Source of the DNA: Arenimonas donghaensis DSM 18148 = HO3-R19 | Lineage (GTDB): Bacteria > Pseudomonadota > Gammaproteobacteria > Xanthomonadales > Xanthomonadaceae | Assembly (NCBI RefSeq): GCF_000743535.1 | Contig: NZ_AVCJ01000002.1 | Location: 1-64,000 of the forward strand | Reading direction: 5' to 3' | Length of the DNA: 64,000 nucleotides | In this document: piece by piece, positions 14,101 to 19,585 of the stretch | Position numbering within the stretch: the stretch's first letter is position 1 | Layout: every line of letters begins with the position of its first letter | The notes under the pieces: generated by a model | Database searches by the model: none | What the model was told of the DNA's origin: nothing | Seen by the model: the letters and a program-made list of their open reading frames with translations, nothing else | Program-made: the position numbers and the translations under genes

Positions 14101-14794
14101 CACCTCCAACCTGACGCAGTGGCAGAGCAAGCTGGAGTGGCGCGAGGACCGGGGCGCGGAACAGCGCGAGCAATGGGTCACCACCAACCGCCTGCTGCAC
14201 AAGGTCAACGACAGCCTGCGCGTCGCCGCCCGGCTCAATTGGTCCGAGACCGAGGACGCCGTGCAGACGCAGGCCGGTGCCCGCTTCATCGAAGGCAACG
14301 TCGGTTTTGCCTGGCGGCCCTGGGACAGCACCCGCTACGCCCTGCTGGGCAAGTACACCTGGCTGTACGACGTGTCGGCGCTGCCCCAGGTGGGTGACAC
14401 GGTGGCCTTCTACGACCAGCGCACGCAGGTGGCTGCGATCGAAGGCATCTTCAGCCCCGACCAGCGCTGGCAGCTTGCCGGCAAGCTCATGCGCCGCGAG
14501 GGCGAAGTCCGCATGGGCCGCCTGGCCGGCACCTGGACCGATGCCGCGGCGACCTTCGCCGCCGGGCAGTTGCGCTACAGCTTCGCCGACCACTGGCATG
14601 CCCTGGCGGAATATCGCTGGCTCGGCGTGACCCAGGGCGGTGATCGCCGGGGTTTCCTGGTCGGCATCGACCGTGACATCGGCGACCATTTCCGGATCGG
14701 CGTAGGCTGGAACTTCACCGATTTCAGCGACGACCTGACCGATTTCGACTACGACCACCGCGGGTTCTTCCTGAACCTGGTGGGCAGCTACTGA
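11117..14794 (+). CDS. Large outer-membrane beta-barrel protein, partner of the giant repeat protein
   Basis: About 1,225 residues. The N-terminus (MRLKMKILDC, hydrophobic stretch, then LLVSAS before DDPAAA) is a signal peptide. I chose ATG 11117 because a purine-rich AGGGGGG lies about 7 bases upstream and it overlaps the previous stop as TGATG; a GTG at 11114 is also in frame. The first 330 residues are soluble in character, with Ig-like beta segments such as HGRNIPEGYTVEINGQPH. The rest alternates aromatic, acidic and glycine residues as in long transmembrane beta strands (YGDDSTTYRDVD, WGNFGTGFTGTEYGQ) and ends in Tyr after a hydrophobic strand (FFLNLVGSY), as outer-membrane barrels do. 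I recognise no enzyme motif and no clear TonB box. Position between two DUF11-type genes suggests it exports or anchors one of them; that is inference. Confidence 0.8.
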   Translation: MRLKMKILDCTLIAVLGTAAFPLLVSASDDPAAAKSIGDVACGASGCTSDGEVLVRVRTRGEREPAADGADEGLAADRRVTIEAGQAGRVSAVGKWTVQLPDGGVVWATEDPNLGQPVLNASASSLVAFEGGRIAKPVRFYVQGNYSSFISEAEIIVFAGKDTDLVEPLARIPLEVAAVADATWDGELPADAVAREGDELQYIVRVRDAEGSVDETFPQRLQLVRPEEAERGLSRNRDGTEKTRGIRLGADEAQDLALVQSAFAGNALRQQNIAIHGSRIRIHGRNIPEGYTVEINGQPHPVDLERKLAAEYLMPVGQHRFELTLAGQDRAPVSHTLDVDVTGRYLFAVAIADLTVSNGDTSGSIEPLAGDERFDDGFLLEGRLAFYLKGKIKGRYLVTAQADTSEREVSELFDGFWDADPQDIFRRLDPDTYYPVYGDDSTTYRDVDSQGRLYVRVDWDRNQALWGNFGTGFTGTEYGQYQRSLYGAALDWRSRRATAYGDAGSQLRAFASEAQTVAGHSEFVGTGGSLYYLRHTDVLPGSEVLTLEVRDTTTGRVEGSVVLQRGVDYEIDEFQGRILLTRPLAQITRERVPTLTRDAPLDGWLQVLLADYEYVPSGGFDADDVAAGFRGRHWFGDHVGLGATWVDENRAGDDYSLRGADLTLKAGRGTYVRLEHTRTEATSAPVFFSDNGGLSFTELNSGLGARSGEARAVEARANFRELGWTQRDWSAGAWWREVEGGFSVARFDTGQAIREYGAEVRGEFGPDLGVYAKASQAERGAESLGQAQLTAEWRLSQDRSLSAELRRVDEQRLGGDAVGTLAAVQYKHRLGTSLDLYGIAQVTVDDDSGAYQENDALTVGAQYQFGDLSTVGAELTTGDRGDALRVDGEYRLSAEHSFYGGYTYSTDQSAYDPLFNPSANAGWTLGQRWRLNSNVNVFNESQYLKAPGQTGLAHTFGMDFFVGEGWNLGFTLQDADLEAASGLVERRAISVSGGRTSNLTQWQSKLEWREDRGAEQREQWVTTNRLLHKVNDSLRVAARLNWSETEDAVQTQAGARFIEGNVGFAWRPWDSTRYALLGKYTWLYDVSALPQVGDTVAFYDQRTQVAAIEGIFSPDQRWQLAGKLMRREGEVRMGRLAGTWTDAAATFAAGQLRYSFADHWHALAEYRWLGVTQGGDRRGFLVGIDRDIGDHFRIGVGWNFTDFSDDLTDFDYDHRGFFLNLVGSY

Positions 14795-14808
14795 TGCGAG
14801 GATCCACC

Positions 14809-17800
14809 ATGCCTGTCGTTAACTCCCGCAAGGCGCCGAGCGCCTGGCTCCTGCTCGCCTGCCTGCTCATGCCCGGCGTGGCCTCGGCGCAGGCGCTGGT
14901 CTGCGGCAACCCCGGCAGCAACCCGGCCAGCACGGCCTCGGGCATCGTGAACACCTATTATTCGGGCACGACCGGCACCCTGGCCGCGGGCTCGACGGTG
15001 CTTGCCCTGGGCAACCGCGATACCCGGGGTGCCAGCACCACGGTGGCCGTCGGCGACGTCCTGATGTTGATCCAGATGCAGGACGCCACGATCAACACCA
15101 GCAACAGCAGCGTTTACGGCTCCGGAACCGGCAACGGTTCGGGCACCACCGGCATCGGTGGCACCGGTCGCTACGAATTCGTGCGGGCCGACGCCGTGGC
15201 CGGCAGCAACGTGACGTTTTCGCCTGCGCTCACCTATTCCTACGTCAACGCCGACGCGACCGCCGCCGCCGGCCAGCGGCGCTACCAGATCGTGCGCGTG
15301 CCGCAGTTCGCCGACGTCACGCTCAACGGCGTCACTGCCCCGCCCTGGGGCAGAGACGGCACCTCGACCGAAACCGGTGGCGTGGTCGTCGTCGATGCCG
15401 CCGGAACCATCACGCTGGGCTCGGCGACCGTCGAGGGCCAGGCCGGGCGTGCGGTGTTTGTTGCCGGCCGGGGCTTCCGCGGCGCTGCCGGCATCGGCGG
15501 GTCCGGTCCGGGCACCGACGTCGACTGGCGCGCCCAGGACACCGGTGTTTTCTCCTCTACCACTCACGGCGGCAAGGGCGAGGGCATCGCGGGCACGCCG
15601 CGTTTCCTGGCGATCAAGACGAACAATTTCGGCGCGGCGGTGACCAGCGCCAACCTGCTGGTGCTCGATGCCGGCAGCACCGGTTACCCGTTGGGCGATC
15701 GCGCCCGCGGAGCGCCCGGTAATGCCGGCGGCGGCGGCACCGAAGGCTCGCCGGCGGCGTTCAGCAATTCGCGCAATGCCGGCGGCGGTGGTGGTGGCAA
15801 CTATGCCGCAGGTGGCCTGGGCGGACGACCCTGGAACGCACCGCTCAACGACACCGGTGGCCGCGGCGGCGCCGGTTATTCCGGCACGCTCGAGTTCAAC
15901 CGGGTGTTCCTGGGCGGTGGTGGCGGTTCGGGCGGCACCAACAACAACACGGCCGACGCCGGGACCTACCTAAATGCGGGCATCAGCTGCGCCAGCAGCG
16001 CCGCGGCGCGCTGCTCCGCCGGCGGTGCCGGTGGCGGCCTGGTGATCCTGCGGGCCCGGCAGGTCACGGGCAGCGGTGTCATCGATGCCCGGGGTGCCCA
16101 CGGCTACAACGTGCTCAACGACGCCGCGGGCGGCGGTGGCGGTGGTGGCGCAGTCGTGCTGCAGACCCTGGAAGGCGGCAGCGCCACCGTCAATGTTGCC
16201 GGTGGCGACGGTGGCAACGCCTGGGCCGGCAACCAGACGGGCGAGGCCGCCCGCCATGGTCCCGGTGGCGGCGGCGGCGGTGGTTTCATCGCGTTCGCAC
16301 CCGCGGCCATGTCGCTTTCGGCCAACCTGGCCGGCGGTCGCCCCGGCTACACGACCAACGGCACGACCGACAGCTACGGCGCCTTTGGCCTCAACGGCGG
16401 CCTGACCACTTTCCAGTCGCCGAACGTGCCGGGCGTGGCGCCGGGCGCCCAGTGTTACCCCGACCTGCGGCTGGCCAAGTCCAATGGCACCAGCACCCTG
16501 ACCAATGGCCCGACCACCTACGCCCTGACGGTGTCGAACGTCGGCCAGGCCACGAGCTCGGGCACGGTGACCGTGGTGGACGTGCTGCCTGCGGGCATTT
16601 CGGTGCCCGACGGTGCCCTGGCCCTGGGCGGGGCCCAGGCGGCGAACTGGGCTTGCAGCGCCGCCAGCAACGTCATCACCTGCACTTCCGCCACGGCGCT
16701 CGCGCCGGCGGCCACCAGCAACTTCAGCTTCGTGGCCACCGTGGCGAGTGCCGACGGCACCAGCCTGATCAACCGCGCCCGGGTGGGTGGCGGCGGCGAC
16801 CAGGACCAGCCGACCCCGACCCCGGCCAGCACCACGGCCTGCACGGGCAACAACACGCCAGCGGGCTGTGCGGCCGATGCCGACACGGTGCAGGCGCCGC
16901 TGCTCACGCTTACCAAATCCGACGGCAGCGACGACGTCGTGCTCGGCGGCTCGAGCACCTACCAGCTGGTGGTCGGCAACACCGGCAGTCTCGCCACGTC
17001 CGGCACGATCGGCGTTCGCGACGTGCTCCCGGCGGGCGTGACCTATACCGGTGCTTCGCCCTTCAGCAGCGGCGGTTTCTCCTGCACCTGGACGGCGGGC
17101 ACCAACAGCATCGACTGCACGCGCGCCACCGCGCTGGCCGCCGGCGCCACCGCCACCATCAGCCTGCCGGCGCAGGTGTCGGCCAGTGCCGCCAGTTCGC
17201 TGACCAACCGCTCCCGCGTTGGCGGCGGTGGCGATCCGGGCAAGCCCTCGCTGCCCAGCGTTGCCGACACCCAGGCGTGTCCGGCCCCGACGCCGCCGGC
17301 CACCACGTTCAGTGATGCTTCCAATGGCTGCGCATCGGACACCAATGCCGCGCTCAACATCGAACTGCGCCTGGAGAAGGATGACGGCGCGGTCTTCATG
17401 TCCATTGATGGCAGCACCACCTACCAGTTCATCGTCCGCAACGTCGGCGCGGCCGACTCGGTGGGCACCCTGCTGTTCCGCGATGTCCTGCCGGCGCCGA
17501 TGAACTGGCCGGCGGCGCTGGTCAAGGCGGGGCCGAACGCGGCGGCATGGACCTGCACCCGGGTATCGGCCACGGTCGTCTCCTGCCAGTCGAACACGGT
17601 CATCCCGGCCGGCGCCGTGAGCCAGTTCAGCCTGGTGGCCAACGTCGGGACGGCCACCGACGGCGCGCAGTACACCAACCGCGCACGCATCGGCGGCGGT
17701 GGCGACACCGACCTGCCGTCGAGCCTCAACGATGCCGCCGTCACCGCGTGCACCGCGAACAACTCACCGCTGGGCTGCGCCATCGACCTCAATACGGCCC

Positions 17801-18537
17801 AGGCGGGCCCCCAGGTCAGGCTGTCCAAGTCCCATCCGGATCCGCAGAATCGCGCCCCCGGTGACACCTTCACGGTCAGCCTGGTCGTGCGCAACGAAGG
17901 TGGCACCCCCACCAGTGGCACGATCACGGTGGTGGACGTCCTGCCCAATGGGCTGGGTTTCGTCGGCCCCTTCACCGCGCCCAACAGCAGCTGCAGCAAT
18001 GCCGGCCAGGTCGTCACCTGCACGTCGAACACGGCGCTCGCCGCGGGCGCCACCCGCACCATCGCGTTCCCGGTGCAGGTGCAGGCCGGCATCGTCGCGC
18101 CGGCGGTCAACCGGGCGCAGGTCGGCGGTGGCGGCGATCCCCAGAACTCGGCCGCACCGACGCCGGCTTCCGCCGCGACCTGCGTGATGAACGGCCAGCC
18201 GCAGTTTGGCTGCGCCGTCGACCCGATCCCCCTCACCAGCGACCTTCAGGTCACCAAGACCAACAACCAGGTCGGAGTCGTCTCCGGCCAGACCGTGACC
18301 TACGTGGTCACGGTCACCAACGCCGGCGCGGTGGCGGTCACCGGGGCCGTGGTGCACGACAGCCCCAGTGGCCAGCTGAACTGCCCCGCGGGCAATCCGG
18401 TCACCTGTTCCGGCGCGGCCTGCCCGGGCGGGGCCCTGACGGTCGGCGGCCTGGTGGGCGGCGTGACCCTCGGGACCCTGGGAACCAGTGCGCCCGGCAA
18501 TGCGGTGTCGTTCACGTTCGACTGCCAGGTGCCCTGA
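14809..18537 (+). CDS. Secreted glycine-rich protein with DUF11-type repeats
   Basis: 1,242 residues. Start ATG 14809 follows a GAGG ribosome site at about 14798-14801; an in-frame ATG at 14794 overlapping the previous stop is possible. The N-terminus has a clear signal peptide (SAWLLLACLLMPGVASAQA). Residues of about 290-520 are rich in runs of Gly (GGGGGGN, GGGGGSGG, GGAGGG). Four DUF11-type domains follow, each with a LxKSxG...TYxLxVxNxG opening and a conserved NRARVGGGGD element, and a last domain (LQVTKTNNQVGVVSGQTVTY) ends the protein without an anchor. I infer an exported structural or adhesive protein working with the two upstream gene products. No catalytic motif is visible. A stem-loop after the stop may end the operon. 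Confidence 0.8.
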   Translation: MPVVNSRKAPSAWLLLACLLMPGVASAQALVCGNPGSNPASTASGIVNTYYSGTTGTLAAGSTVLALGNRDTRGASTTVAVGDVLMLIQMQDATINTSNSSVYGSGTGNGSGTTGIGGTGRYEFVRADAVAGSNVTFSPALTYSYVNADATAAAGQRRYQIVRVPQFADVTLNGVTAPPWGRDGTSTETGGVVVVDAAGTITLGSATVEGQAGRAVFVAGRGFRGAAGIGGSGPGTDVDWRAQDTGVFSSTTHGGKGEGIAGTPRFLAIKTNNFGAAVTSANLLVLDAGSTGYPLGDRARGAPGNAGGGGTEGSPAAFSNSRNAGGGGGGNYAAGGLGGRPWNAPLNDTGGRGGAGYSGTLEFNRVFLGGGGGSGGTNNNTADAGTYLNAGISCASSAAARCSAGGAGGGLVILRARQVTGSGVIDARGAHGYNVLNDAAGGGGGGGAVVLQTLEGGSATVNVAGGDGGNAWAGNQTGEAARHGPGGGGGGGFIAFAPAAMSLSANLAGGRPGYTTNGTTDSYGAFGLNGGLTTFQSPNVPGVAPGAQCYPDLRLAKSNGTSTLTNGPTTYALTVSNVGQATSSGTVTVVDVLPAGISVPDGALALGGAQAANWACSAASNVITCTSATALAPAATSNFSFVATVASADGTSLINRARVGGGGDQDQPTPTPASTTACTGNNTPAGCAADADTVQAPLLTLTKSDGSDDVVLGGSSTYQLVVGNTGSLATSGTIGVRDVLPAGVTYTGASPFSSGGFSCTWTAGTNSIDCTRATALAAGATATISLPAQVSASAASSLTNRSRVGGGGDPGKPSLPSVADTQACPAPTPPATTFSDASNGCASDTNAALNIELRLEKDDGAVFMSIDGSTTYQFIVRNVGAADSVGTLLFRDVLPAPMNWPAALVKAGPNAAAWTCTRVSATVVSCQSNTVIPAGAVSQFSLVANVGTATDGAQYTNRARIGGGGDTDLPSSLNDAAVTACTANNSPLGCAIDLNTAQAGPQVRLSKSHPDPQNRAPGDTFTVSLVVRNEGGTPTSGTITVVDVLPNGLGFVGPFTAPNSSCSNAGQVVTCTSNTALAAGATRTIAFPVQVQAGIVAPAVNRAQVGGGGDPQNSAAPTPASAATCVMNGQPQFGCAVDPIPLTSDLQVTKTNNQVGVVSGQTVTYVVTVTNAGAVAVTGAVVHDSPSGQLNCPAGNPVTCSGAACPGGALTVGGLVGGVTLGTLGTSAPGNAVSFTFDCQVP

Positions 18538-18543
18538 GGCCAG

Positions 18544-18581
18544 GCCCCCGGAATCGATGCAGGTCATTGATTCCAGGGGGC
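18544..18581 (+). terminator. Stem-loop after the DUF11 operon
   Basis: GCCCCCGGAATC (18544-18555) pairs with GATTCC-A-GGGGGC (18569-18581), giving 12 pairs with one bulged A and a 13-nt loop. It starts 6 nt after the stop codon. No U-tract follows, so it may act as an RNA-stabilising or weak terminating structure rather than a classical intrinsic terminator. Confidence 0.5.
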
Positions 18582-18610
18582 TTGAAACCGGCCGGGCCAG
18601 CACCACATAA
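18581..18610 (+). promoter_or_regulatory. Possible sigma-32-type promoter for rpoH
   Basis: CTTGAAA (18581-18587) followed after 15 nt by CCACATAA (18603-18610) resembles the sigma-32 consensus CTTGAAA-N11-16-CCCCATNT. The -35 is exact; the -10 is partial. It would allow RpoH to activate its own gene. It overlaps the 3' base of the preceding stem-loop. This is pattern matching only. Confidence 0.35.
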
Positions 18611-18632: not shown

Positions 18633-18650
18633 CGTTCCATTCATGGAACG
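18633..18650. promoter_or_regulatory. Perfect 8-bp inverted repeat upstream of rpoH
   Basis: CGTTCCAT (18633-18640), two bases, then ATGGAACG (18643-18650). The symmetry is perfect and it lies 21 bp upstream of the CIRCE element in a non-coding leader, so it could be a second operator or an RNA hairpin. I do not recognise the cognate regulator. Confidence 0.5.
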
Positions 18651-18671
18651 GACAGGGAACTTTATGCCTAT

Positions 18672-18698
18672 TTAGCACTCCAAATGTCCGAGTGCTAA
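18672..18698 (+). promoter_or_regulatory. CIRCE element (HrcA operator) in front of rpoH
   Basis: TTAGCACTC (18672-18680), a 9-bp spacer, then GAGTGCTAA (18690-18698). This is an exact match to the CIRCE consensus TTAGCACTC-N9-GAGTGCTAA, the binding site of the heat-shock repressor HrcA. It ends 26 bp before the chosen rpoH start codon, where bound HrcA would block initiation or early elongation. CIRCE normally controls groESL and hrcA-dnaK operons; here it would place the heat-shock sigma factor under HrcA. Confidence 0.93.
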
Positions 18699-18724
18699 AC
18701 TCCGGACCCATGAACGAGGATCGC

Positions 18725-19585
<861 letters not shown>

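Follow-up and report, generated by a model that had tools for sequence, protein, structure and literature searches.

Comparative evidence makes it very likely that the repressor HrcA restrains rpoH, the gene for the heat-shock sigma factor sigma-32, in Arenimonas donghaensis DSM 18148, given that a CIRCE operator directly upstream of rpoH is kept together with hrcA across the family and has decayed where hrcA was lost. The operator is located in the 64,000-nucleotide stretch of contig NZ_AVCJ01000002.1 that was analysed here (hereinafter, the window), and we consider it likely that HrcA represses rpoH through this site, where it would overlap sigma-E and sigma-70 promoter elements, within a feed-forward loop that is closed by GroEL. 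The binding of HrcA, the repression, the use of sigma-E and the link to GroEL are all predictions. In most of the sampled CIRCE-containing gammaproteobacteria, a link of this kind probably joins the two classical heat-shock circuits.

The operator and the overlapping putative promoter elements

The earlier note on this DNA described a perfect CIRCE immediately in front of rpoH, and this description is borne out. The inverted repeat matches the classical form, TTAGCACTC-N9-GAGTGCTAA, with 0 mismatches (Table 1) and is the sole site in the window at up to three mismatches, with about 0.01 sites expected by chance (mean of 100 dinucleotide shuffles of the window). The scan of the whole genome (2.98 Mb) that the earlier note called for returned, at the same threshold, only one more site, TTGGCACTC-N9-GAGTGCTAA, which contains one mismatch and is located upstream of groESL. 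The genome also encodes one HrcA (PF01628, E = 6.9e-64) within an hrcA-grpE-dnaK-dnaJ cluster, so that the absence of hrcA, which would have spoken against the proposal, does not apply. A search for CIRCE before hrcA itself found none, and matches to a sigma-32 promoter at this position hardly exceed those in shuffled sequences; hence, we make no claim of sigma-32 feedback on hrcA.

The identity of the downstream gene is clear from the match of its product to the RpoH equivalog model TIGR02392 (405.9 bits, compared with the cut-off of 323.1); among named RpoH proteins, that of Arenimonas caeni is the closest (94% identity). In Xanthomonas campestris, RpoH is an essential protein (PMC6085468). 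The likely start codon is the ATG at 18725, which is preceded by a GAGG ribosome-binding site and aligned with the starts of relatives; the right CIRCE arm ends about 26-27 nt upstream of this codon and 11 nt upstream of the first in-frame ATG. An RNA element or thermometer around the rpoH start was also considered and rejected, there being no Rfam match and a fold z of only -1.9.

Table 1. Features at and upstream of rpoH in the window
Feature	Position	Strand	Remarks
Sigma-32-like promoter, CTTGAAA...CACCACAT	18581..18608	+	same position in 5/5 genomes of the genus
Second palindrome, GTTCCATTCATGGAAC	18634..18649	+	just upstream of the sigma-E box
Sigma-E type -35, GGAACTT	18656..18662	+	16 nt (start to start) upstream of the left CIRCE arm
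CIRCE operator, TTAGCACTC CAAATGTCC GAGTGCTAA	18672..18698	+	arms 18672-18680 and 18690-18698, spacer CAAATGTCC; exact match
Possible sigma-70 -35, TTAGCA	18672..18677	+	left arm; inferred, 18-nt spacing to TAAACT
Sigma-E type -10, TCCAA	18679..18683	+	spans the arm-spacer junction: final two left-arm bases, initial three spacer bases
Possible sigma-70 -10, TAAACT	18696..18701	+	overlaps the right arm
rpoH (sigma-32) CDS	18725..19585	+	TIGR02392 and NF005143; alternative in-frame ATG at 18710

Several promoter-like elements are interlaced with the operator. In 35 of 42 genera and at 27 of 35 sites from the class, the GGAACTT box (up to two mismatches) starts 16 or 17 nt ahead of the left arm, and it is rare at other distances; in the family, the sigma-E -35 box occupies the same position at 54 of 65 sites. 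With the 16-nt spacing, the matching -10 element (TCNAA) consists of the end of the left arm together with the first bases of the spacer. At the third spacer position, 83-86% of the rpoH sites have A; in the groESL sites, which thereby provide an internal control, C predominates. Furthermore, a T three bases past the right arm is invariant across the 42 genera and present in 91% of the class sites, matching the requirement of a sigma-70 -10 element (TAANNT). A candidate sigma-E promoter (GGAACTT - about N16 - TCNAA) is present in conserved geometry, as judged by the E. coli consensus. This motif has six matches in the genome, one of them about 75 nt before a gene for a DegP/MucD-like protease that adjoins rseB and rseC; a DegP/MucD-like gene beside rseB-rseC is a classical sigma-E setting. 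Taken together, we infer that the rpoH operator forms a conserved composite on/off switch with sigma-E and sigma-70-like elements.

Conservation of the operator and the loss of hrcA

The comparison of rpoH upstream regions suggested in the earlier note was carried out with 80 named relatives and with genomes from 46 genera of the family, and the inverted repeat is present at the same place in most of them. Classical CIRCE arms are found at rpoH in Arenimonas and some other genera; the operators of Lysobacter, Stenotrophomonas, Pseudoxanthomonas and Xanthomonas are of the form TTAGCAGTC-N9-GACTGCTAA, in which the same base (arm position 7, C to G) is altered on both arms, or further derivatives thereof. 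In many of these variant lineages, the groESL operators carry the same changed base on one or both arms. The arm change is largely a single clade-level event and, accordingly, does not constitute independent proof of coevolution with HrcA. Two related ideas were set aside for similar reasons: the co-drift of the rpoH and groESL operators (genus-level Fisher p = 0.007) is not independent of phylogeny, and the HrcA residues 23, 34, 40 and 53, which differ between the operator classes, show too few independent changes on the tree, which lends the idea no support, with one genome (G029) breaking the pattern. Two records (L012 and L041), labelled Rhizobium sp. and Bacillus subtilis, contain rpoH loci of the Lysobacteraceae type and are probably mislabelled or contaminated assemblies.

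A natural experiment is provided by genomes that lack hrcA. The rpoH operator, defined as a site with up to three mismatches to a CIRCE-type form, is kept in 64 of 71 hrcA-positive genomes of the family and in none of the 4 genomes without hrcA (Fisher p = 0.0003, relatedness ignored; the absence of hrcA was checked and its presence taken as given). The four genomes identified by HMM search as hrcA-less (G003 and G048 from one genus, G025 and G117) probably represent three independent losses; in three of them, namely G003, G025 and G048, recN directly adjoins grpE, and the intervening hrcA is missing. In all four, the operator has decayed, whereas hrcA-positive relatives of the same genus keep it. 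In one further genome (G080), no hrcA was detected and the operators are intact; grpE is missing as well, and we therefore treat this case as a probable assembly gap. Conversely, the rpoH operator is missing from seven hrcA-positive genomes of the family, several of which retain the groESL operator; this implies that the link between HrcA and rpoH is dispensable. Degradation or loss of the rpoH operator with hrcA kept was seen in the Lysobacter-like L036, L072, L085, G034, G068 and G114, and in G034 and G068 the groESL operator can still be read.

The palindrome could, in principle, be kept mainly as a set of core promoter elements (the sigma-E -10 and the sigma-70 -35 and -10), with HrcA binding being incidental. 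Promoter-like hexamers indeed overlap both arms, the flanking T and the spacer A are conserved, and the hrcA-less genomes retain a TANNNT-like -10 in the right arm, with G025 also retaining the sigma-E box. Promoter elements, however, do not need dyad symmetry, nor would they call for the change at arm position 7 on both arms or for the strong conservation of right-arm positions 1-6, which lie outside the promoter hexamers; moreover, in G025 the palindrome is broken and the sigma-E promoter is not. We regard this alternative as unlikely. It is still less probable that the site is recognised by another repressor, at least where the arms are of the variant type and each is one base off the classical CIRCE: the groESL operators of many such lineages carry the same change, the window site is canonical, and decay of the operator accompanies the loss of hrcA.

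Additional elements are found farther upstream. Matches to the sigma-32-like promoter with one or two mismatches are far commoner than in shuffles, which is compatible with possible autoregulation of rpoH. An operator whose main role is to block read-through from this promoter, that is, to act as a brake on autoregulation, would fit the conservation of the promoter in the genus but is very improbable, given that the promoter is seen in some genera only and the operator and sigma-E box are class-wide. The second palindrome is the sole site of its kind in the genome at up to one mismatch and recurs with up to two mismatches in 45 of 74 rpoH upstream regions of the family, in part with compensating changes. 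A GC-rich segment at 18545-18580, which can form a hairpin and has no T run, follows the large repeat-protein ORF at 14794-18537 and is perhaps its terminator.

A predicted circuit linking HrcA, sigma-E and sigma-32

The groESL upstream regions contain a sigma-32 promoter (0-2 mismatches) in 75 of 75 family genomes, and most of them also contain CIRCE-type sites; in the window genome, groESL combines its own CIRCE with a near-perfect sigma-32 promoter. This arrangement would amount to a coherent feed-forward loop, and not simply to a series. Thus, the proposal of the earlier note that the HrcA and sigma-32 circuits are wired in series is supported with respect to the HrcA site at rpoH but is incomplete, inasmuch as groESL has its own CIRCE and sigma-32 promoter and the rpoH operator is overlapped by a promoter of the sigma-E type.

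Under the preferred reading, HrcA bound to the operator would cover the sigma-E -10 element and the span from the sigma-70-like -35 to the -10, so that strong transcription of rpoH would be expected only when HrcA is inactive and a sigma factor, in particular sigma-E freed by envelope stress, is available. In other bacteria, HrcA needs GroEL for its activity, which is lost upon titration of GroEL or heat denaturation. Inactivation here could likewise result from titration of GroEL by unfolded proteins or from denaturation of HrcA by heat. RpoH would then drive groESL from its sigma-32 promoter; HrcA would also repress groESL itself and hence act on it twice, directly and through rpoH, with GroEL closing the loop. 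When Xylella fastidiosa is starved of nitrogen, the mRNAs of hrcA and rpoH both increase (reviewed in PMC11764788), which runs contrary to simple repression.

Distribution in Gammaproteobacteria and comparison with known systems

The implication that CIRCE at rpoH is unusual wiring is not supported: the arrangement is family-wide and occurs in the majority of the CIRCE-containing Gammaproteobacteria sampled, and a 2004 study had already predicted it for Geobacter. CIRCE is located directly before rpoH in 55 of 59 sampled CIRCE-containing genomes of the class, from 48 families as counted by the tool's codes, a proportion that applies to these genomes and not to the whole class; 55 of the 184 class genomes in the sample have no CIRCE at up to one mismatch. 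Joining the coordinates of CIRCE and RpoH placed the operator less than 230 nt before rpoH in 27 of 29 joinable genomes from the 184-genome sample, a subset biased by output order. Reading of the sequences revealed an rpoH site (up to three mismatches) in 28 of 30 further CIRCE-containing genomes, a subset that excludes four chosen positives and is biased by similarity to the window RpoH.

In Geobacter sulfurreducens, a CIRCE was predicted at position -51 of rpoH (Rodionov et al., 2004, PMC545781); as here, it is an exact CIRCE directly before the gene. The passages of that account consulted here concern a single genome, of a deltaproteobacterium, and contain no mention of sigma-E overlap, co-conservation or hrcA loss. 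Our search of the open literature found no report of CIRCE at rpoH in gammaproteobacteria, although the survey of beta-, gamma- and epsilon-proteobacteria by Permina and Gelfand (2003, J Mol Microbiol Biotechnol 6:174) may report more. As far as could be checked, the composite geometry of sigma-E promoter and CIRCE and the evidence from hrcA loss are new.

Compared with the HrcA/CIRCE regulon of groESL and hrcA-grpE-dnaK-dnaJ, the window genome is alike in the exact operator, its overlap with a promoter, the presence of hrcA and groESL as a target, but differs in that the sigma-32 gene is a target and the hrcA-dnaK operon is without CIRCE. Textbooks treat the control of sigma-32, which in E. 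coli is exerted through translation and proteolysis, and repression by HrcA at CIRCE as separate heat-shock strategies. If the present reading is true, most sampled CIRCE-containing Gammaproteobacteria join both strategies, together with the envelope-stress sigma factor, at the transcription of rpoH. Natural deletions of hrcA and the fixed promoter geometry yield direct, testable predictions.

With respect to E. coli, the P3 promoter of rpoH is sigma-E-dependent, and the upstream region in strain MG1655 contains GAACTT-N16-TCTGA. A sigma-E box before rpoH is accordingly common to E. coli and the window, but E. coli shows no trace of CIRCE: the best candidate for a relic has 8 mismatches, no better than in shuffles. 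We offer, tentatively and at somewhat less than even odds, the hypothesis that the rpoH promoter ancestral to Gammaproteobacteria was of the sigma-E type and gated by HrcA, and that P3 is what remained of it in E. coli after loss of hrcA and the operator. Were this the case, envelope stress and the status of the chaperonin would be combined at the transcription of rpoH, and the arrangement in E. coli may be derived.
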